Origin: a virus
Strand: one strand, 5' to 3'
IMG/VR virus record: IMGVR_UViG_3300017598_000429
Location: 1 to 33,927 of that record
Length of the DNA: 33,927 nt
The position numbers and the translations under genes are program-made. Shown one piece after another: positions 14,360-32,739 of this stretch (position 1 is the stretch's first letter; the number at the start of each line of letters is the position of its first letter). Below the pieces are notes generated by a model. It did not search any database. It was given only the letters and a program-made list of their open reading frames with translations, and was not told where the DNA came from.

Positions 14360-14412
14360 TGGCTCCCCGAGCTGGGCTCGAACCAGCGACAAACGGATTA
14401 ACAGTCCGTTGC
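14360..14412 (-). other. Attachment site attP core: 3' half of a tRNA-Asn gene
   Basis: Read on the minus strand, this segment contains the complete anticodon arm ACGGA-CTGTTAA-TCCGT (anticodon GTT, Asn), a variable loop, a T arm GCTGG-TTCGAGC-CCAGC, the 3' acceptor strand TCGGGGA, discriminator G and encoded CCA. No D arm or 5' acceptor strand precedes it; the flanking bases are unrelated. That is the form expected of a phage attP that restores the host tRNA gene on integration. The integrase gene lies about 1.2 kb to the right. Confidence 0.88.
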
Positions 14413-14428
14413 AATATCCAGTGTTTAT

Positions 14429-14477
14429 AGGGGTTTGAGGGGTATTGTTAGGCCACCAACAGGCCAATTTCAGGGGT
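14429..14477. repeat. Three AGGGGT repeats beside the attP core
   Basis: The hexamer AGGGGT occurs at 14429-14434, 14438-14443 and 14472-14477 in the same orientation, immediately right of the tRNA fragment. Short direct repeats on the integrase side of a core are the usual form of integrase arm-type or excisionase sites, but binding is not shown. Confidence 0.4.
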
Positions 14478-16787: not shown

Positions 16788-16927
16788 TCTGTTTTACCCT
16801 TTGCTTTATTGCATTCCTTGCATTTATTAACTCTACCACCATTCATTTGATTGTGCTTGTAAAAGTCAGTGCGCGGCTTTTCATCACCAGCCAGCAAATC
16901 GCAATGATAATCCTCAAAATAATTCAC
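16781..16927 (-). CDS. Zinc-ribbon-like micro-protein (48 residues)
   Basis: A GTG start at 16927 overlaps the end of the PAPS-reductase-like gene, and the frame runs to a TAA overlapping the excisionase ATG. The product ends VNKCKECNKAKGKTEC and has an earlier EKPRTDFYKHNQMNGG, matching the form of phage zinc-ribbon proteins with a KPxxxFYK core and CxxC at the C-terminus, though the first cysteine pair is reduced to a single Cys. The start has no clear ribosome binding site and may depend on coupling. Moderate certainty. Confidence 0.5.
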   Translation of the reverse strand: MNYFEDYHCDLLAGDEKPRTDFYKHNQMNGGRVNKCKECNKAKGKTEC

Positions 16928-17659
16928 CTTCTGCTATTTGACAAAAAACGCCACACTGAATGTCAACGCTGTCATCCTGCATAGGTATATGCGAGGGTAT
17001 TTCATCTAATTTATAACGCATAACTTCACCATTTACAGTGCATTTAAGTAAATTTACGTTTAATAGCTTTTCATAACTATTCATTTTTGCACTGGCTTCA
17101 GCGTAATGTTTTTGCATTAACTTATGGTAACCAGCACCACCTTTCACGCATGGTATACATTTGTTGTTCTTAAAACCCTGTTTATAAAGTGTCGGCAACC
17201 CAATGCCAGCATCTTGCACAATTGCAAGACAGTCTTGTTTAGTTAAACCTCTGTCTATTAATGGTGTAATAATTTCAACATCGTTATTAGCATCAATAAA
17301 CCTGTCAACTCTGTGCTGCTCCTCAGACGTATAACCAAACACCTGAATGTCACCAGGCTTTTCATATTGCTTCCTAACCTCTTTTTTTAATAACCTGGTA
17401 CAAGCGGCCCCACCGACACCGGCCATATATTTAGTTTGTTTAAATACTTCAAATATACTCCGGTTGTATTTGTCGTTACCTACAGTTTTTATTTTCTGCC
17501 CAAACCACTTTTCACAGTCAGACAGAAAACGTTTATTGTCAGGATGCTCCTCTTTAATCTCAATATTGACCACATCGACTTTTTTATGATCTTTAATAGC
17601 TAACATGGTCGAGACTGCCGAAGCTGCGCCTGCGCTGTACCAAGAAATAATCCTCAAAA
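16907..17659. repeat. 13-bp direct repeats bounding the PAPS-like gene
   Basis: ATAATCCTCAAAA occurs at 16907-16919 and again at 17647-17659. Both copies cover the end of a gene (stop TGA preceded by a Phe codon) and the first one on the minus strand also carries the TTG start of the PAPS-like gene. Recombination between them would remove the gene cleanly. Confidence 0.8.
16914..17657 (-). CDS. PAPS-reductase-like (PP-loop) protein
   Basis: This 247-residue protein belongs to the phosphoadenosine phosphosulfate reductase-like group found in phages. The PP-loop is ISWYSAGAASAVS (residues 3-15), a variant of SGGxDS. Other typical parts are KEEHPDNKRFLSDCEKWFG, GVGGAACTRLLKKEV and the C-terminal KCIPCVKGGAGYHKL, with paired cysteines possibly for metal or iron-sulfur. 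Such proteins activate substrates with ATP and handle sulfur, but phage members are uncharacterised; nucleic-acid modification or sulfur metabolism are options. The start is TTG overlapping the previous stop, and no ATG is available. A 13-bp direct repeat bounds the gene exactly. Confidence 0.85.
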   Translation of the reverse strand: MRIISWYSAGAASAVSTMLAIKDHKKVDVVNIEIKEEHPDNKRFLSDCEKWFGQKIKTVGNDKYNRSIFEVFKQTKYMAGVGGAACTRLLKKEVRKQYEKPGDIQVFGYTSEEQHRVDRFIDANNDVEIITPLIDRGLTKQDCLAIVQDAGIGLPTLYKQGFKNNKCIPCVKGGAGYHKLMQKHYAEASAKMNSYEKLLNVNLLKCTVNGEVMRYKLDEIPSHIPMQDDSVDIQCGVFCQIAEGELF

Positions 17660-18230: not shown

Positions 18231-18847
18231 ACTGCCTCCATGTGCATTTTTTCAGAAATAATGCCGCGTTTTATCAAAATGTTTTGAATAAAAGTGCGTA
18301 TTAGTTTATTAAAAGCATTCTGCCAATTTTCATCAGCGCTGACATTAATCAGCAGCGGCGGCAATTCGGGGTGAAATGAAAGAAAATCCCACTGTGTTAA
18401 ACCAGTTACATACATTGATCCTTGGACCTGGGCAATGTATTTAGCTGGTAGTTTGTCAGCCAGTAAATACTCAATGTGAGTATGCGGGGCAGGACATTTA
18501 ATTTCCAAACCCCTGTCATTTGATAGGCCATCAGGACTGCACGACAGCATTTTTGAACTGTCCTTGTAGACAATTCCAACCTCATTAATTTCAATGTCTG
18601 AGACAAACGAATAATAAGATCGCGCCTGGGGCTCCAATTCAATTCCGCGTGTCATCCATTCATTTTGCTCAACAGAAATTTTATCCTGCAAAAAATATTC
18701 AGCGACCAGTTTATTGGCATACGCCCTAGACTGTGTTGATGCTTTGCCAGTGGATGTTATTATTTTATCGAATGATGATGCGGTGGGGATGCCAGTTCTG
18801 GCCCTCATCCATTCATCACTACCCTGCTCAACATTTAAGATGATCAT
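18227..18847 (-). CDS. YqaJ-type phage exonuclease
   Basis: This 206-residue protein is the lambda-Exo-like nuclease that would resect double-strand ends. Its features are GSDEWMRARTG (residues 9-19), MTRGIELEPQARSYY (65-79), SPDGL with Asp106, LEIKCP with Glu115 and Lys117, and YIAQVQGSMYVTG. These are the D-ExK catalytic centre of the YqaJ/PD-(D/E)XK fold. The adjacent ERF gene encodes its annealing partner; the two overlap by 4 bases. Confidence 0.93.
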   Translation of the reverse strand: MIILNVEQGSDEWMRARTGIPTASSFDKIITSTGKASTQSRAYANKLVAEYFLQDKISVEQNEWMTRGIELEPQARSYYSFVSDIEINEVGIVYKDSSKMLSCSPDGLSNDRGLEIKCPAPHTHIEYLLADKLPAKYIAQVQGSMYVTGLTQWDFLSFHPELPPLLINVSADENWQNAFNKLIRTFIQNILIKRGIISEKMHMEAV

Positions 18848-19410
18848 GTCTTGTTCCTTTTTTTGCTGAGTTTTGCAACTGCATCCTCTGCCTGGGTAAA
18901 TGACATTTCACTGACACTGGCAACGTTATAGGCATTGTAAAATAGCGGAACATTAACAACCTTTGTTTTCAACAATGAATTTATTGCCCGTTTCTGTTTT
19001 GCCGTTGACTTGTCGGGCGGCTGTTTGGATGCCGTGACACCATCATCATCAACAGAGGGGCAGCCAGTCATTGCCTGGAGTCCGTAGCGTTTGCCGTATG
19101 TGATGGCTGATGTGTGTCCATGAATATCCTGTTTAGTCGGCGGAAGATATACCGTCCCCTGTATCCATTCGCCTGATTTGTGCATTATTCTGGTAGTAAC
19201 ACTGATGCTGCTGTGTTTGATAGATGGTGACTGAACAAAACTTAAACCATTATCTGCAAAAGGTTTTGCTATTGCCTCCATTACGGCGGTTAAATCAGAA
19301 TATTTTGACTTGAAAAACGGATTATCACTTCCTTTTGTAGCGCCTGTCATTTGTTTCTGTGCCGCACATAATGCCGCAGCAATTTCCTTGATACTTTCCG
19401 ATGTTTTCAT
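18844..19410 (-). CDS. erf: ERF-family single-strand annealing protein
   Basis: This 188-residue recombinase anneals complementary single strands generated by the exonuclease. The ERF core is residues about 1-140: IAAALCAAQKQMTGATKGSD, NPFFKSKYSDLTAVMEAI, the GEWIQGTVYLPPTKQDIHGH segment and AITYGKRYGLQAMTGCPSVD. The C-terminal 55 residues are basic and likely contact other proteins. It is expressed from the leftward early promoter. ERF, YqaJ and an SSB-like protein together can circularise or repair phage DNA independent of host RecA. Confidence 0.93.
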   Translation of the reverse strand: MKTSESIKEIAAALCAAQKQMTGATKGSDNPFFKSKYSDLTAVMEAIAKPFADNGLSFVQSPSIKHSSISVTTRIMHKSGEWIQGTVYLPPTKQDIHGHTSAITYGKRYGLQAMTGCPSVDDDGVTASKQPPDKSTAKQKRAINSLLKTKVVNVPLFYNAYNVASVSEMSFTQAEDAVAKLSKKRNKT

Positions 19411-19419
19411 TTTTATTCC

Positions 19420-19512
19420 TTATAAGATCCAAAACTCAGCGCCAGCCAGGGCGGCAAAAAACACACACCAGCCAGCAACTAGCGCTATATCTATTAAACG
19501 CCTAAATCTCAT
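19420..19512 (-). CDS. 30-residue single-pass membrane micro-protein
   Basis: A short frame starting with ATG overlapping the previous stop (ATGA) encodes a basic RFRR start followed by a hydrophobic helix (LIDIALVAGWCVFFAALAGA) and FWIL. It fills most of the gap between ERF and the 92-residue gene. The positive N-terminus predicts N-in topology. Ribosome binding is weak (GGGA) and would rely on coupling. Function unknown. Confidence 0.5.
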   Translation of the reverse strand: MRFRRLIDIALVAGWCVFFAALAGAEFWIL

Positions 19513-19787
19513 TCCCAATCATCCTCCGATGCTTCAATGTAATAACGGAGGTATTGATCAATTTTTGCTTTTAAAATAGGGGTTTTATCAACAACAGACG
19601 TAAATGAGGCCCAAAAGCAGGGCCATTCATCTTGTTCAATCGCATCTATAGCACATTCCAATATTATTTTAGAGGTGCAGCTTCCATCATCATTTCGCCA
19701 GAAATGGTCAACGCGGGCTTTAATATATTCCTCTGTTATGTCGTTCTGAAAAAATTCAGGAGAATTGTAAAATCCTGGTGCATCCAT
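19509..19787 (-). CDS. Unknown 92-residue acidic protein, first gene of leftward operon
   Basis: The protein is acidic and tryptophan-rich (HFWRNDDGSCTSKIIL, IEQDEWPCFWASFTSVV, ending ASEDDWE). AGAGGT lies at good distance before the ATG. It is the first gene after the leftward early promoter, a place where phages often encode host-takeover or RecBCD-inhibitor proteins; acidic DNA-mimic proteins are one possibility, but no family is recognised. Confidence 0.65.
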   Translation of the reverse strand: MDAPGFYNSPEFFQNDITEEYIKARVDHFWRNDDGSCTSKIILECAIDAIEQDEWPCFWASFTSVVDKTPILKAKIDQYLRYYIEASEDDWE

Positions 19788-19813
19788 TAATAGTACCTCT
19801 AATTGAATGTTAT

Positions 19814-19842
19814 ATAGTATACAGCAATATACACGTAGTCAA
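19814..19842 (-). promoter_or_regulatory. Leftward early promoter PL with operator OL
   Basis: On the minus strand TTGACT (19837-19842), a 17-base spacer and TACTAT (19814-19819) form the promoter. The operator GTATACAGCAATATAC (19817-19832, GTATA-N6-TATAC) fills the spacer and reaches into the -10 box. The downstream operon is 19787 to 15649. The same -35 to operator distance of 4 bases is found at the two promoters beside cro. Confidence 0.78.
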
Positions 19843-19874
19843 CACCGGTATTATTTATATTAATATTTTTTCGG

Positions 19875-19890
19875 AAATATATATATATTT
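19875..19890. repeat. 16-bp AT palindrome between divergent promoters
   Basis: AAATATATATATATTT is a perfect palindrome in an extremely AT-rich stretch between PL and the plus-strand promoter at 19916. It could ease melting or bind a host nucleoid protein. An imperfect operator-like site, ATATA-GTAGTT-TATAG, follows at 19897-19912. Confidence 0.5.
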
Positions 19891-19915
19891 GTCGTTATAT
19901 AGTAGTTTATAGATA

Positions 19916-19944
19916 TTGACAATATTGAGGGTAGGCTACAAAAT
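19916..19944 (+). promoter_or_regulatory. Plus-strand promoter towards the repressor 3' end
   Basis: TTGACA (19916-19921), a 17-base spacer and CAAAAT (19939-19944, 4 of 6 to consensus). It has no GTATA-N6-TATAC operator in its spacer, unlike the three other control promoters. It would transcribe the 62-residue frame at 19981 and continue antisense to the repressor gene. Confidence 0.5.
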
Positions 19945-19980
19945 AAACATGGAAATCAACTTTATACAAAGGAAATGTAT

Positions 19981-20169
19981 ATGGAATGCTGCAAATTTGA
20001 AACGGAATTAAATAATTTCAGAAAGATTCTGGAAATAACGGAACGGGCGGAACGGGCTGGACGTATGGCTGTTTTTATTGAGTGGATTGACTCAGCAGAA
20101 TTTCAAGCATTGCCTGTGCCGGAGATCTCCCTTTCAGCGCGGCCTGATACATCGCAATTAAAACGCTAA
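19981..20169 (+). CDS. Small unknown protein convergent with the repressor gene
   Basis: ATG at 19981 has AAAGGA at ideal spacing; an ATG two codons earlier is too close to that site. The 62-residue product begins MECCKFETELNNFRKILEIT and has an amphipathic charged helix (ERAERAGRMAVFIEWIDS). Its last 32 codons are antisense to the end of the repressor gene. It could be an antirepressor-like regulator, or the transcript itself may act as antisense RNA; both are guesses. The promoter and ribosome binding site argue for translation, the overlap argues for caution. Confidence 0.45.
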   Translation: MECCKFETELNNFRKILEITERAERAGRMAVFIEWIDSAEFQALPVPEISLSARPDTSQLKR

Positions 20170-20524
20170 TCTTTACATCCCGACTAAACTCCGTAGAACC
20201 TAGCAGGATAGCGTCCTCATAAAGTTTGTAAACGCTACTAAATACCGCGATATCAATGCCATTAGGCGCATCCGATGAGGCATCCATTGCACCCTCACCA
20301 GTCGCAAGCCACCGGGGATCAGCGTTCAAACAATCGCTCAATAGAAAAACAACCTCTGCGTTCGTTATTTTTGTTCGCCCGGTTTCGTAGTGGCTGATAC
20401 TCTGTTTAGATACCTGGCCGCCAGTTAACTGACTCAATTGTTCCTGCCCCAGGCCGCGATTATCTCGCGCCAGTTTTAATCTATCGCCAAATTCGACATT
20501 CAAACATTCATTAGACACGTGCAT
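20075..20524 (-). CDS. CI-like phage repressor without protease domain
   Basis: The repressor that would maintain lysogeny. Residues about 12-70 form an XRE-type helix-turn-helix: FGDRLKLARDNRGLGQEQLS, then GGQVSKQSISHYETGRTKIT. Following NADPRWLATGEG is the typical end of that domain in phage repressors. The remaining 75 residues are helical and lack any S24/LexA-type catalytic serine or lysine motif, so RecA-stimulated self-cleavage is not expected. The protein is 149 residues, against well over 200 for cleavable repressors. It is transcribed leftwards from the promoter at 20601-20629. The predicted targets are the GTATA-N6-TATAC sites. Confidence 0.88.
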   Translation of the reverse strand: MHVSNECLNVEFGDRLKLARDNRGLGQEQLSQLTGGQVSKQSISHYETGRTKITNAEVVFLLSDCLNADPRWLATGEGAMDASSDAPNGIDIAVFSSVYKLYEDAILLGSTEFSRDVKISVLIAMYQAALKGRSPAQAMLEILLSQSTQ

Positions 20525-20542
20525 TCCATTTTCGTATTTTCG

Positions 20543-20571
20543 TTGACTAAGGGTATATAGTTTTATACAAT
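20543..20571 (+). promoter_or_regulatory. Rightward early promoter PR with operator OR1
   Basis: TTGACT (20543-20548), a 17-base spacer and TACAAT (20566-20571). The operator GTATATAGTTTTATAC (20553-20568) fills the spacer and overlaps the -10. It drives cro and the replication operon. The predicted start at about 20578 points at the leftward promoter, so the two face each other. Confidence 0.78.
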
Positions 20572-20600
20572 ATATTCAATTACTACATACAATTCAGGAT

Positions 20601-20629
20601 ACAGTATAGCAAAATATACTGTTTGTCAA
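20601..20629 (-). promoter_or_regulatory. Repressor promoter with the most symmetric operator
   Basis: On the minus strand TTGACA (20624-20629), a 17-base spacer and TACTGT (20601-20606, weak; TATACT at 15 bases is an alternative). The operator is a perfect inverted repeat, ACAGTATA-N6-TATACTGT, at 20601-20622, with GTATA-N6-TATAC as its core. The transcript would read into the repressor gene. Confidence 0.65.
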
Positions 20630-20654
20630 ACTTTAACAAGCATTGGGTTTACTA

Positions 20655-20852
20655 ATGACATTCAAACAGCTTTTAAAATACTTCGGAACTCGCCGCGCAA
20701 TTTACCAATCACTGAAACCACCGATCACAAAAGGCGCACTAACAGACTGGCCCGTTACCGGTGTTCCCGAATTGCGGCAGCGCCAATTTGAGGAGGTAAC
20801 CAACGGGGAATTAAAAATGGATAAGAAATTTCACCAGGGAAACAATAAATAA
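20655..20852 (+). CDS. Cro-like regulator
   Basis: This 65-residue protein resembles the compact Cro family: KQLLKYFGTRRAIYQSLKPP as the start of the helix-turn-helix, then TKGALTDWPVTGVPELRQRQ and FEEVTNGELKMD, matching the VPExRQxQxExxTxGxLK pattern. ATG at 20655 is chosen over an in-frame TTG at 20643. It is the first gene after the rightward promoter and lies opposite the repressor, so it would favour lytic growth by occupying the shared operators. The basic tail KKFHQGNNK is probably flexible. Confidence 0.88.
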   Translation: MTFKQLLKYFGTRRAIYQSLKPPITKGALTDWPVTGVPELRQRQFEEVTNGELKMDKKFHQGNNK

Positions 20853-20909
20853 ACTCCAGAAGTGTTTTTATTAACTCTCTGTAACTGGGGGGTAAAAGGG
20901 GAACAATAA

Positions 20910-21158
20910 ATGGATGCAAGAAAAAAAACCGACAAAGCCATAAGGCTAATGATTTCCGTTATTAATTGCGGCATTCCAGCCAATTTAAAAAACGACAATA
21001 TTGAACCTCCAAGCGTAACTAGCTTAGTAACTGGTAAAAGCGTTATTTGTTTTGACAAATACGACTTATGGGAAAACGAGTTTACACCTAAAAAATTAGG
21101 CGCAACCCAGGTAGAGGCAATTGATTGGCTAACAGGAGAAGATGTTAAATGGAATTAG
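20910..21158 (+). CDS. Unknown 82-residue early protein
   Basis: It follows cro with AAAGGGGA before the ATG. The sequence (MDARKKTDKAIRLMISVINC start, then PPSVTSLVTGKSVICFDKYD and FTPKKLGATQVEAIDWLTGE) has no known family to my eye. It is probably cytoplasmic. The gene overlaps the methyltransferase start by 10 bases. At this place lambdoid phages carry a CII-type activator, but no helix-turn-helix is evident here, so I do not call it one. Confidence 0.68.
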   Translation: MDARKKTDKAIRLMISVINCGIPANLKNDNIEPPSVTSLVTGKSVICFDKYDLWENEFTPKKLGATQVEAIDWLTGEDVKWN

Positions 21159-27249: not shown

Positions 27250-27722
27250 TGGCTAATTTGGTGTTTAACATTGCGAAGGGGCGTGTTGCCGAACTATACA
27301 ACCGGGTTGACACTAACGATCCCACAAACGCAGCATTGATTGTTGTTGCAATAGCCACAACCGACACAGATGCAGACATAAAAGATGTCGACACGTTGAG
27401 TGCATTGCTCGCATTAAGTTCAACCGCCGAGGCCACGAATAGCAATTATGGGCGGAAAGCGTTGACGGATTCCGACCTCAGTGCAATTTCACCCGATGAT
27501 ACAAACGATAGAATGGATCTGGATTTTGACGATCTAACCTGGTCAAGTGTTGGCGCAACGGGCGGAGCGTGGACGGATTTAGTTATTTGTTACGACAGCG
27601 ATACCACAGGTGGCACTGATGCCAATATCATTCCTTTGACGCTGCATGATTTTAGCGTAACACCAAACGGAGGCGACATTACCGCAGAACTCAGTGCAGA
27701 CGGATTTTATAGAGCAAGTTGA
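27249..27722 (+). CDS. Tail appendage accessory protein A
   Basis: This 157-residue acidic protein starts one base into the Rz1 stop with GAGGAAA before it. The C-terminal half (DLDFDDLTWSSVGATGGAWT, then DLVICYDSDTTGGTDANIIP) resembles a beta-sandwich and shares plan with the product of 32757-33170, notably a T-W turn followed by VLxYDSDxxxxxxLI. It is probably an appendage or adaptor for the beta-helix proteins next to it. No family name can be given. Confidence 0.65.
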   Translation: MANLVFNIAKGRVAELYNRVDTNDPTNAALIVVAIATTDTDADIKDVDTLSALLALSSTAEATNSNYGRKALTDSDLSAISPDDTNDRMDLDFDDLTWSSVGATGGAWTDLVICYDSDTTGGTDANIIPLTLHDFSVTPNGGDITAELSADGFYRAS

Positions 27723-29245
27723 TGGCTACTGTTGCTGATTGCCATTTATCTGACTGGTATAGACAAAGCTCATCTCCGTTCCTGGACGGCAACTATCCGC
27801 ACACGCCGAGAGTAAGAACCGGGGATTGGTTTGTGTCTACCACAGGTTCAGACAGCAACAGTGGGATGACAAGTGATACAGCTTTTCTAACCTTTGCTCA
27901 CGCAGAGAGTGCAGCAGAAACTGGCGATACGATATTAGTTGTCAACGGTACATATTCAGAGGCACTCGAACCCACCAAGTCAAGCATTACATGGATGGCA
28001 CAGACTATCGGTGGTGTGACAATTCAAAAAACCTCTGATGGTGCTGCAATAGATATTTATTCAGACACAGGCACAACCTACAGCTACATTACCGTTGACG
28101 GGTTTATTGCACGAAGTATGGGCGAGTATGCAGCCATACGCCTAAACTCGCAGGATAATATAGTTGAAGCATCCATGACGAATAACATCACATTGCGAAA
28201 TTGTGGTGCATTTGGCTCAGCTAACTTGACCAATACGATGACAATAGGTGTTTCCAGAGTGAGGGATTCACTGATGGAGGATTGCTTTAGCTATGGATTC
28301 GGACGAAAATCTATCCAGATTTACGGCTCACATCGCATCACCTCCAGGCGCATTGTAGCACGATACGACTATTGGGATGGTGGGGGTTATAAACCCGGTG
28401 ATCCTCGCCATAGTTTTGCGATTTACAACAGTCTCGATTGTATCAGTGAGGACATTATATTGCTGGATGCAGCACCCGATCCAGTGGGCAGGGTGTCAGC
28501 CACACGTTCCGCAGTAGCGATTGAGGGTAATACCGGCGACACCACAACCATTACAGGCGCGAGTGACAACGAATTTCACAACATTATCACGATTAATAAT
28601 ATAGGCCGTGGTCTTTACTCATCCGGTTGGAGTGGTGGTAATAACGACAACAATGTGATTAATAACTTTATTAGCTACGAAAACCAGGATAATGGCTTTA
28701 TTTTACACGCATACACAACGGATACCACAATATCAAACCTGACAATCGGTGAAGCATTGTTTGCAGGGATGAGGGTTAACAACGATAATGTTAACGGTGT
28801 CGCCATAGATAAAACAGTTCTCTGGAATAACACCACTTATGCTTTTATAATGGACGGCTATGACGGTTATGAGGGTCTGAATATATCGGTTACTAATACA
28901 TCCGTAGACGGTAACCCTTCAAGTTCAGATATCGAGGCAGCGTATACACCGACCTTCGATTACCTGGTTGACCCCACGATGGTTAGCGGTCACGAGAGAG
29001 GGGCGGTTATAACCAAGCGTTCAGTAAACGGTGTTCTAACTGACGTTGATTTATGGCCGTTCCCTAATGAAGATTTGATTAAAGAGCACATGCTCAATTC
29101 AACCGATCTAATAGCATGTAACAGGGTGGCATCAGGGGGCGCGTACTGGCAGCCGGGATGGGACGCAGCAGACACCACGTTAACTCGATATATCTGGGAA
29201 TATTTAGGCAACACTATCCCTGATTCTGTGTACGGAGCAAGCTGA
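27722..29245 (+). CDS. Right-handed beta-helix tail protein 1
   Basis: This 507-residue protein has a parallel beta-helix plan. The opening GDWFVSTTGSDSNSGMTSDT and LTFAHAESAAETGDTILVVN with GTY is the standard start of pectate-lyase-like proteins. Rungs rich in Asn and Ile/Val follow (ITLRNCGAFGSANLTNTMT, IITINNIGRGLYSSGW, NNVINNFISYENQDNGFILH). ATG at 27722 overlaps the upstream stop as TGATG. It is probably a tailspike or side-fibre for surface polysaccharide, possibly an enzyme; no active-site residues are assigned. Confidence 0.82.
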   Translation: MATVADCHLSDWYRQSSSPFLDGNYPHTPRVRTGDWFVSTTGSDSNSGMTSDTAFLTFAHAESAAETGDTILVVNGTYSEALEPTKSSITWMAQTIGGVTIQKTSDGAAIDIYSDTGTTYSYITVDGFIARSMGEYAAIRLNSQDNIVEASMTNNITLRNCGAFGSANLTNTMTIGVSRVRDSLMEDCFSYGFGRKSIQIYGSHRITSRRIVARYDYWDGGGYKPGDPRHSFAIYNSLDCISEDIILLDAAPDPVGRVSATRSAVAIEGNTGDTTTITGASDNEFHNIITINNIGRGLYSSGWSGGNNDNNVINNFISYENQDNGFILHAYTTDTTISNLTIGEALFAGMRVNNDNVNGVAIDKTVLWNNTTYAFIMDGYDGYEGLNISVTNTSVDGNPSSSDIEAAYTPTFDYLVDPTMVSGHERGAVITKRSVNGVLTDVDLWPFPNEDLIKEHMLNSTDLIACNRVASGGAYWQPGWDAADTTLTRYIWEYLGNTIPDSVYGAS

Positions 29246-32200
29246 TGGCAACGATGCCCATTGGGGTTCCTGATCCCGGTTTTGGTATTGATGATGTCAT
29301 ACCATCCCGACCGGGGACATGGACGAGTGAGGTTGCGGGGTATTACTACGTTGATAACGACAACGGTACAGATTCAGGACGCACTTACGGAACACCGGCA
29401 GCTCCCAGAAGTACAATTCCCGATCCGATTCCAGCCGGTGCTTATATCGAGGTTGAGAACGAATATAATGAATTAACTTCTGGTGCTATTCGGCTGGATT
29501 CGTCTGGCACATCTGGCAGTCCTGTCTGGATAACAGGCAGCAAAGAAAGTGGGGCAACCCACAGTTTCACAACAACCCGTATCCGTGTAAGGGGCAGTCA
29601 CCTCTACCTTGACGGATTAGAGATTAATAATGGCGGCAGGATATATGTCGGCGATACTGTAAGTGGTTGGGCGGCTGACCATATTGTAGTTAGAAATTGT
29701 AATATCGAGGGAGTCACTACCGACACATCAGGTGCAACTATGCTTGCAGCGCGTGGTTATAGCAGCTCGTCAAAAATCACGCAGATGGTTTGGTATAATA
29801 ACCATATATGGAATAGTGGCCTCATCAGCTCACCGAATGATGATGATTGTCACGCAATGAACACTCTTGGCGTGACTGATAATATTTGGATACTGAACAA
29901 CACGATACATGATTGCAGCGGTTCAGGGTTACAAGTTAATCATTCAGGGATGGGTTACAATATTTATGCTGGTTTCAATGAGATTTACAATGTCAGGCAG
30001 TCGGGCTTGTGGGTTAAAAACGGCACTGACGTTATATTTTCACAGAATTATATTTACGATATTATAAGCACACCCTGGTCAGAGTCCAAGGGTATGGGGG
30101 GGCAGAACTACCCCATTAGTGTTTGGTATATTTATAATAGAATCAGAAATTGTGAATATGGCTGTCGGTTTGTGTCCACCGATGGTGTAGGTGGTTACGA
30201 ACAATATGTTATTGGTAATATTTTCGAGGACATCGGAGGCTCTGTTTCTGGCTCATCAGGGTGGGAAGATAACGGGGTACAATGCGGAGGTGAGAGCAGC
30301 CATTGGATTTATAACAATGTGTTTTACGATTGCTCGCACGGGGTTACTGTAGTAGATCCGTCTGTTGAGACTAACATTTATAATAATATATTTGTTGATT
30401 GCAAAAACACGACAAATGGCACACACATCTGGTGTGCAGATACCAGTGATATTAATACTGACAATAACCTGTTTTATCAAACAGGCGGCACTGAGGTTCT
30501 AAGGTGGGGTAGTACGAGCTATAACCTGTCGGGGTTTCAGTCAGCTACAGGGAAAAACCTAAATTCTCATGTCGGTGACCCGGATTTCGCTAATACATCA
30601 ACTGGTGATTTCTCCCCGTCAGACACAACCCATACCCTCGATAATGGCGCAAGCATTGCCAGTTTACAAAGTACGTTTTATTCGACTTTCGGTACAACGT
30701 TAGATGTAGACTACAACGGCGATGCGCGAGTACAGGGCGATAACATCGACATCGGTGCTTATGAGTCAGGTGACTCAGGTGTAACTTCCTTATCTTTAGC
30801 AACAGAGACAGACACGGCGCACGAACTGACTGTCAGTTATGAACCGCAGGATGGTTGGGCAGTTGTTGAGATAAGCAACGCATCTACGGAAGAAGGGAGT
30901 GTTTTTGAAGATTTTGTAGGGACGGTTGAAGACGGTTGTCAGATTTACTACAGCACAGCAGACAACACAAATATTACACCGTCTGGCGTACTGACAACAG
31001 ATAGCACAGTCAGTATGGACTGTCAGTTCTACGATGTCTCAGATAGCAGCTGGAAACAGTTCACTATTATTATAAATCCTCTTGTCGGATTAGTGACAGA
31101 GACAGACACAGCGTTAGAAATACAGTCTAATATGACTGTGCAAGAAGGTTGGCAATTGCCAACTGATAATTATGTCAGCCAACGGATGCCACTTAATTTA
31201 GTTTATCCGCGTCCGGATTCGGAGACACAGACACACGCACGACATCGGTTAATGCACACGGTGATGCCCTATAGAATCCCGATTGGTATCCAGGGTGGCG
31301 CGTGGCCCTTTAAATACGAGTTAACAACCTATCCAGCAGGCGCAACGATAGGTGAGACTCACGGAACATCTGATTACGGTGTTGTCAATTGTCCGGGGTT
31401 GACCAGTGGCACACATTCGTTTGTTGTGCGCGTAACCGCGCAGGACGGCAATTACATTGATGTTGAGTGGAGCGCTGTTGTTGATGATAGTAAATTTACA
31501 TTTATTGAGGACGGTTATTCCGGGACAAAAACAGGCACTATTACACAGCCATTAGAATCATGGGCAGACTGGTATCAGGGCGATAATAATGATTCTACCT
31601 ATGCCAATCAGGTTATCGTATTTCGCGGAGGTGATTACACGGCAGTTGGTGATCTCGGTGATAATTACAATTGTGAAATTAACACAGGCATTAAAACACC
31701 GTCATTAATAGGCTATCCAAATGAAACGCCTGTTGTTGATATGTCAGGTTGTAAAATACTTACCCGCAGCGGCTCAAATGTTAATGATGTTTTTGTTTCC
31801 AGTATCAGGTGGGAGAGCGCTAGGCAGGATGTAAACAACGCCCACTTCATTTGGGCAACGGGAGATGTTAATCGCTGCACATGGTTTGACAACTATTTTT
31901 ATGATTTCGGTGCAGGCACAGTTGGCACTGACAACAATTGCGCGGTGTTTATATCATCGAAAACTTCGCATAAACACTATTGTTACTATGCAGAGAATAC
32001 ACATGATGATTTTTGGAACAATTCATCCAACGGCTCTTATTGCGATTTCTATTATTTATCTGACGTTGTTGTTGAGCGTAACACTGTAAAGGATTCCCGT
32101 GCTACATACGGGTTCTGGATGAAAGGGACTCGTTCAAATGTTACGGTACGGGCTAACAATATATATGACAACGTAACCAGAATAGGCATCTCGGTTGGTT

Positions 32201-32739
32201 ACGGTACGGGTGAGGTTGGCGCAATTCCGCACGACCATGAGGTTTGTTGGAATAGAATCAGTGCAAGCGCGGATTGTTTGCTATGGGCTGGCGCAACATC
32301 ATCACAATATCAACACTACGATAACTATATATATAGAAATACATTTTATGGTGACTCGCCTTGGATTCGATTTGTTGGTGCTGAGAATTACGAGGTACAG
32401 GGCAATGTAGTTGTCAGCGATAACCTGTCGCAGTGGGATACATCTATCATGGATGTACCGGAGACTAACATCACGGGTAGTACGTCAGCAGGAATAACAG
32501 ACAGCACAGGTCTATTGATTGGCGCAAGCCGTGTGGATTATCTCGGCACAAAGGGTTTTGAGGTCGCAGGGGGCATCGAGGCCCTTGGCATTGCAACTGA
32601 AACCGATGCGGCACACATTATTTCCGTTTTAAATGCGGGTATTATATTAACAATTGGACAGGCTGAAGAAGTTAATGCCGCGCGAAACATTAGCATTGGA
32701 AACGATGATATCGCGTATTTACGTTATACAAGAATCTAA
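29245..32739 (+). CDS. Large dual beta-helix tailspike/fibre protein
   Basis: This 1164-residue protein has two right-handed beta-helix parts. The first spans residues about 30-510 (GYYYVDNDNGTDSGRTYGTP and many NNxI rungs). A middle part, about 512-760, contains ETDTAHELTV and ETDTALEIQS repeats and a beta-sandwich. The second beta-helix spans about 770-1090 (FIEDGYSGTKTGTI start, ERNTVKDSRATYGFW rungs). The end has ETDAAHIISV and a degenerate fourth repeat (AEEVNAARNISI). It overlaps the gene before it and probably trimers as a receptor-binding spike. Confidence 0.8.
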   Translation: MATMPIGVPDPGFGIDDVIPSRPGTWTSEVAGYYYVDNDNGTDSGRTYGTPAAPRSTIPDPIPAGAYIEVENEYNELTSGAIRLDSSGTSGSPVWITGSKESGATHSFTTTRIRVRGSHLYLDGLEINNGGRIYVGDTVSGWAADHIVVRNCNIEGVTTDTSGATMLAARGYSSSSKITQMVWYNNHIWNSGLISSPNDDDCHAMNTLGVTDNIWILNNTIHDCSGSGLQVNHSGMGYNIYAGFNEIYNVRQSGLWVKNGTDVIFSQNYIYDIISTPWSESKGMGGQNYPISVWYIYNRIRNCEYGCRFVSTDGVGGYEQYVIGNIFEDIGGSVSGSSGWEDNGVQCGGESSHWIYNNVFYDCSHGVTVVDPSVETNIYNNIFVDCKNTTNGTHIWCADTSDINTDNNLFYQTGGTEVLRWGSTSYNLSGFQSATGKNLNSHVGDPDFANTSTGDFSPSDTTHTLDNGASIASLQSTFYSTFGTTLDVDYNGDARVQGDNIDIGAYESGDSGVTSLSLATETDTAHELTVSYEPQDGWAVVEISNASTEEGSVFEDFVGTVEDGCQIYYSTADNTNITPSGVLTTDSTVSMDCQFYDVSDSSWKQFTIIINPLVGLVTETDTALEIQSNMTVQEGWQLPTDNYVSQRMPLNLVYPRPDSETQTHARHRLMHTVMPYRIPIGIQGGAWPFKYELTTYPAGATIGETHGTSDYGVVNCPGLTSGTHSFVVRVTAQDGNYIDVEWSAVVDDSKFTFIEDGYSGTKTGTITQPLESWADWYQGDNNDSTYANQVIVFRGGDYTAVGDLGDNYNCEINTGIKTPSLIGYPNETPVVDMSGCKILTRSGSNVNDVFVSSIRWESARQDVNNAHFIWATGDVNRCTWFDNYFYDFGAGTVGTDNNCAVFISSKTSHKHYCYYAENTHDDFWNNSSNGSYCDFYYLSDVVVERNTVKDSRATYGFWMKGTRSNVTVRANNIYDNVTRIGISVGYGTGEVGAIPHDHEVCWNRISASADCLLWAGATSSQYQHYDNYIYRNTFYGDSPWIRFVGAENYEVQGNVVVSDNLSQWDTSIMDVPETNITGSTSAGITDSTGLLIGASRVDYLGTKGFEVAGGIEALGIATETDAAHIISVLNAGIILTIGQAEEVNAARNISIGNDDIAYLRYTRI

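Follow-up and report, generated by a model that had tools for sequence, protein, structure and literature searches.

Control of several switch promoters through operators shared by the repressor and Cro is a textbook principle. In phages lambda and P22, divergently oriented repressor (CI or C2) and cro genes are governed by shared palindromic operators over PL, PR and PRM, with three operators per region and with PR and PRM back to back. Lambda's compact back-to-back form with shared operators has been contrasted with the switches of P2 and 186, in which the lytic and lysogenic promoters face each other, 40-60 bp apart, and the second regulator, Cox or Apl, has direct-repeat sites of its own (PMC7498355). 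In the telomere phages PY54, N15 and phiKO2 (immB), 16-bp palindromic operators are located between divergent repressor and cro genes and a highly specific Cro site is found at the repressor promoter (PMC4488713). The Qin prophage and its relatives, e.g. phiES15, have the DicA/DicC pair, in which a P22_Cro-type protein accompanies a repressor that is short (135 aa), is not cleaved and controls PR-like and PL-like promoters (PMC10448788). The DicA operator Oc is a 20-bp inverted repeat, TTGTTAGTCATAACTAACAA, of the form TTGTTAG-N6-CTAACAA, and from this site DicA reportedly activates its own gene (PMC3441716).

The locus described here lies in a window of 33,927 bases, the entire virus record, and resembles each of these systems in part. 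As in lambdoid switches, an HTH repressor gene and cro are divergent and common palindromes are found at three predicted promoters, PL, PR and PRM; the Cro protein belongs to the P22_Cro family. Unlike in lambda and P22, however, there is one operator per promoter, the operator sequence is different, PR and PRM are predicted face to face, and the repressor is short and has no matched cleavage domain. The short repressor, its P22_Cro-type partner and an operator palindrome of similar size recall DicA/DicC, but the DicA operator sequence differs from the GTATA-N6-TATAC of the window, where lambda-style activation of PRM from the PR operator is moreover unlikely. Facing promoters, with predicted starts 16-18 bp apart, constitute a likeness to P2 and 186; instead of Cox or Apl with separate sites, on the other hand, the window has a P22_Cro protein and one palindrome at both promoters. 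PY54, N15 and phiKO2 likewise have 16-bp palindromes between the divergent genes, but these have another sequence, their arrangement is described as lambda-like, and they were not shown to be common to a PL promoter at the geometry of the window. The window appears to pair facing promoters with a shared palindrome and Cro, a combination found in no described phage in a literature search of limited scope.

Genes of the control region and the neighbouring operons

The repressor and cro genes are located on either side of the PR and PRM sites (Table 1), and their family matches support the repressor/Cro pair of the original prediction. In the related IMG/VR record 3300025133_007499 (11.9 kb), hereafter L001, ATA replaces the ATG at 20524, but the GTG at 20518, which is in frame and preceded by GGA at a distance of 6-7 bases, is kept. 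Translation of the repressor thus probably begins at this GTG. No cleavage or peptidase domain was matched in the repressor by Pfam. The structure model of the protein was of low confidence (mean pLDDT 59) and uninformative on DNA binding, and a PDB search with it gave no match at E ≤ 0.001. The nearest named NCBIfam models were DicA and DicC (26.2 vs. 101 bits and 17.9 vs. 130 bits); by these models the system is not a member of the DicA/DicC group, as both scores are far under the NCBIfam cut-offs. The operators of the window also differ from that of DicA. The repressor is 21% identical to that of phiES15 (E = 0.066). An antirepressor is a known route to induction without a cleavable repressor (PMC10448788); none was identified in this genome.

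Leftward, the PL operon comprises a gene of 92 aa, the Erf-type protein and an exonuclease-like protein. Rightward from PR follow cro, an 82-aa ORF, an MT-A70 methyltransferase gene, replication genes (a P-like one among them) and a gene for a Q-like protein, with a weak NinB-like match in the same operon. Both are gene sets of lambdoid switches, and together with the terminase, portal, head and tape-measure genes in the window they indicate a lambda-like temperate phage genome.

Table 1. Positions and properties of the proposed operator sites, predicted promoters and genes of the control region
Feature	Position	Strand	Description
Site at PL	19817..19832	-	Top-strand letters GTATACAGCAATATAC; - strand reads GTATATTGCTGTATAC; 5-bp arms; exact match
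Site at PR	20553..20568	+	GTATATAGTTTTATAC; 5-bp arms; exact match; identical in L001
Site at PRM	20601..20622	-	ACAGTATA-N6-TATACTGT; 8-bp arms; arms identical in L001
Site at PRM, 16-bp core	20604..20619	-	GTATAGCAAAATATAC; exact match
Predicted PL	19814..19842	-	-35 TTGACT 19842-19837; leads to 19787-19509 and the Erf and exonuclease genes
Predicted PR	20543..20571	+	TTGACT-N17-TACAAT; start ~20578; into cro; rank 4
Predicted PRM	20601..20629	-	-35 TTGACA 20629-20624; start ~20594-20596; leftward into repressor gene
Repressor (CI-like) gene	20075..20524	-	149 aa from ATG 20524 or 147 aa from GTG 20518; HTH_3
cro gene	20655..20852	+	65 aa; P22_Cro, PF14549 39.7 bits vs. cut-off 30.2; PHROG 409
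First gene of PL operon	19509..19787	-	92 aa; no family
Erf-type single-strand annealing protein, PL operon	18844..19410	-	Family match

Copies of the proposed operator and predicted promoters

Exact copies of GTATA-N6-TATAC number three in the window, at precisely the positions originally predicted. The whole-window count, which had been set beforehand as the refuting test, returned no further exact copy and no copy with one mismatch in the 33,927 bases, whereas 18 copies with two mismatches are dispersed over the window. Based on dinucleotide shuffles, the expected number of exact sites is 0.037 for the window and 0.003 for the 2.8-kb control region; of 2000 shuffles of the latter, none contained three sites. 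Because the motif had been chosen by eye, all palindromes with 5-bp arms and gaps of 0-15 were enumerated; GTATA-N6-TATAC is the only one with three copies inside 1 kb. As predicted, TTGAC(T/A) is located exactly 4 bp upstream of all three sites, a coincidence of offsets with P ~7e-7 at the TTGAC frequency of the window (40 offsets allowed) and P ~8e-6 at the higher local frequency. The long arms noted at the repressor's own promoter were also confirmed, 8 bp in length compared with 5 bp at PL and PR. Very probably, the 16-base palindrome is where this phage's repressor, its Cro or both bind.

Promoters were scored at 338,950 positions in the window using an approximate sigma70 matrix. The original prediction placed a -10 box 17 bases from each -35 box (TACTAT, TACAAT and TACTGT). 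All three hexamers are present at this spacing, but at PRM the -10 box is probably shifted by 2 bp: TTGACA-N15-TATACT (20608-20603), with a preceding TG (TGC TATACT), ranks first of the 338,950 positions, compared with rank 42 for TACTGT (20606-20601), which matches the -10 consensus at three of six bases. TATACT with its TG is the more likely -10 box of PRM on these scores, while conservation favours neither register, since TATACTGT is identical in L001. At PL, TATACT (N15, 19821-19816) ranks 9 and TACTAT (N17, 19819-19814) ranks 22.

The facing orientation of PR and PRM was missed by the original prediction. By sequence, the lambda-like back-to-back arrangement is not found here, as the best-scoring promoters face each other and the matrix scan gave no - strand promoter of similar score at the position that a back-to-back PRM would occupy. 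The PR operator corresponds to about +26 to +43 of the predicted PRM transcript and, being downstream of the predicted start, is unlikely to support activation of PRM in the manner of lambda, insofar as the promoter predictions hold.

RNA folding predicted a hairpin of the PRM palindrome in the PR leader (z -2.6), which was set aside as a distinct function because it is expected from the palindrome itself. At 19916 (+), the promoter-like sequence TTGACA-N17-CAAAAT ranks 10 in the window and is kept in L001. Downstream of it is a 64-aa ORF (19975-20169, +), convergent with the 3' end of the repressor gene; this ORF is also kept in L001 and matched no family.

Conservation in L001 and occurrence elsewhere

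The repressor and Cro of L001 are 97% and 100% identical, respectively, to those of the window. The block shared by both records (19802 to 20916, ~1.1 kb, 96% alignment identity) begins at the PL operator and ends just past cro, while on both flanks, beyond the PL operator to the left and beyond the block's right end, L001 is far more divergent or different. Repressor, Cro and operators thus occur together in both phages although the neighbouring genes differ, as if the immunity cassette had been swapped between them as a single module. L001 contains exactly three copies of GTATA-N6-TATAC in the whole record, all in register with those of the window.

Noncoding control DNA (19802-19860 and 20525-20654) was compared between this one pair of closely related cassettes. 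No changes are found among the 48 bases of the arms and -35 boxes, against 20 of 141 elsewhere in these stretches (one-sided Fisher P = 0.002). Sequence varies but length is constant in the N6 (3/18 changes) and in the 4-bp spacer (3/12); at the PL site of L001, the arms are kept and both N6 and spacer are changed. Such fixed arms and -35 boxes at a fixed spacing are what an operator lying within a promoter should show. Absence of the motif elsewhere in the window and its conservation in L001 both agree with the claim of a specific recognition sequence.

No DNA relatives of the window were found among 50,697 phage records, nor relatives of the repressor in genomic contigs. More distantly related repressors (35-47% identity in the part that aligns) come with visibly different control regions, as they should if operators are particular to each immunity type. 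The exact site is missing from 24 of the 25 phages with a related terminase or Erf. The remaining one, G005 (terminase 67% identical to that of the window), has two exact sites (G005:16913 and 19249; L226: 2414 and 4750), one of them with TTGACT 5 bp upstream; no HTH_3 protein or relative of the window's repressor was detected in it.

A viral scan for TTGAC-N5-GTATA-N6-TATAC gave at least 119 stretches; the 120 matches that were analysed represent 74 distinct sites, mostly away from HTH genes. In four unrelated contigs (L009, L011, L016 and L033), TTGACT-4-GTATA-N6-TATACTAT is located upstream of small HTH regulator genes, with the geometry of the window and with regulators unrelated to its repressor. 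These cases look like separate adoptions of a handy word rather than signs of common descent, probably because a -10 box can take its first bases from TATAC. Similar layouts of promoter and palindrome adjoin non-repressor genes in other contigs, never three together.

Two sites 21-50 bp apart occur in 87 stretches in 2.9 million viral contigs and in at least 116 stretches of genomic contigs. Facing -35 boxes at the right distance were found only in the L001 record among the viral stretches, and in none of the genomic matches listed; the cassette is rare in the data searched. Four genomic contigs (L355, L360, L377 and L428; Peribacillus, Robertmurraya and Lysinibacillus are represented) carry paired GTATAC-N4-GTATAC palindromes, 37-38 bp start to start, with TTGAC exactly 4 bp from one member of each pair.

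Proposed switch and competing readings

We consider it highly probable that the region is a lambda-like lysis-lysogeny control region in which GTATA-N6-TATAC is the operator of the repressor, and probably of Cro too, and occludes PL, PR and PRM. This proposal is supported by three exact sites, each in a high-scoring predicted promoter at a constant offset and with none elsewhere in the window, by the lambda-like gene sets to which PL and PR lead, and by L001, which keeps all three sites and holds no others. The placement of the sites in three predicted promoters also supports the originally proposed sharing of one operator, and the site at the repressor's own predicted promoter supports a potential for autoregulation. 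A dimer of the repressor, and probably Cro as well, would at each promoter cover the spacer together with the first bases of the -10 box, so that RNA polymerase would be kept off. PL and PR would be shut in the lysogen, while PRM would be restrained by its own product, the repressor, and/or closed by Cro during lytic growth. The facing PR and PRM are so close that polymerases on the two promoters should get in each other's way, and repressor bound to the PR operator, some 26-43 bases into the PRM transcript, could form a roadblock but would hardly act as a lambda-type activator.

Somewhat more speculatively, and with slightly less than even confidence, we propose that the locus is a natural hybrid switch that unites shared operators of the lambda type and a Cro of the P22 type with facing promoters of the P2 type, with mutual hindrance of polymerases, no positive autoregulation, and bistability arising from mutual repression and interference. 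It would then be a compact natural case in which lambda-type shared operators are seemingly joined with facing promoters and, if the facing layout is true, would help to weigh repressor self-activation against promoter interference in lysis-lysogeny switches. The recognition sequence is ready for testing in this uncultivated phage.

Of the competing readings, a division of labour deserves the most weight, and about one chance in three seems appropriate to us: the PRM site with its 8-bp arms would be chiefly Cro's, the repressor would act chiefly at PL and PR, and autoregulation would be minor. The outer bases set the PRM site apart from those at PL and PR, and PY54 Cro binds only a single 16-bp palindrome, which lies upstream of the repressor gene and whose outermost base pairs determine specificity (PMC4488713). 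The original prediction was that the 8-bp-arm site would bind the repressor most strongly; by likeness to OR3 of lambda and of PY54, it may instead be the main target of Cro. Against such a division, the 16-bp core is equal at all three sites, with no sign of two recognition sequences.

It is improbable that the switch is back to back as in lambda, with the true PRM being a weaker - strand promoter left of PR, activated from the PR operator, and the PRM predicted here minor or inactive. A weak candidate does exist (CTGAAT-N17-TATATT, start ~20562, rank 173), weakness is common among activated promoters, and the reported self-activation by DicA provides a precedent (PMC3441716). However, the PRM candidate with its perfect TTGACA has the top score in the window, and both its -35 box and its arms are identical in L001.

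Binding of the sites by a protein other than the phage's repressor and Cro, e.g. a host regulator, is very improbable, even though other contigs carry the motif after TTGAC next to unrelated HTH genes, and G005 combines two sites with no detected repressor relative: all three sites are at immunity promoters, they form one block with repressor and cro in two phages with different flanking genes, and nearly all terminase- or Erf-related phages are without the site. That AT-rich promoter DNA is palindromic by accident is scarcely credible, as the shuffle and all-palindrome controls largely refute chance and, while the TATAC arm overlaps the -10 box and makes the motif partly promoter consensus, the GTATA arm is no promoter element and yet is identical at all three sites in L001.

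Elsewhere in the genome, two large adjoining late genes (27719-32739, +; 508 and 1164 aa) have no PHROG match; the longer gives a weak beta-helix match (PF13229) and could encode a tail spike or fibre-like protein. The leftward operon includes a gene for a PAPS-reductase-like protein (16914-17657, -) that matches the PADLOC SspD model (E=5e-11), and a tRNA-Asn (GTT) gene (14360-14434, -) separates the tail genes from the integrase gene.
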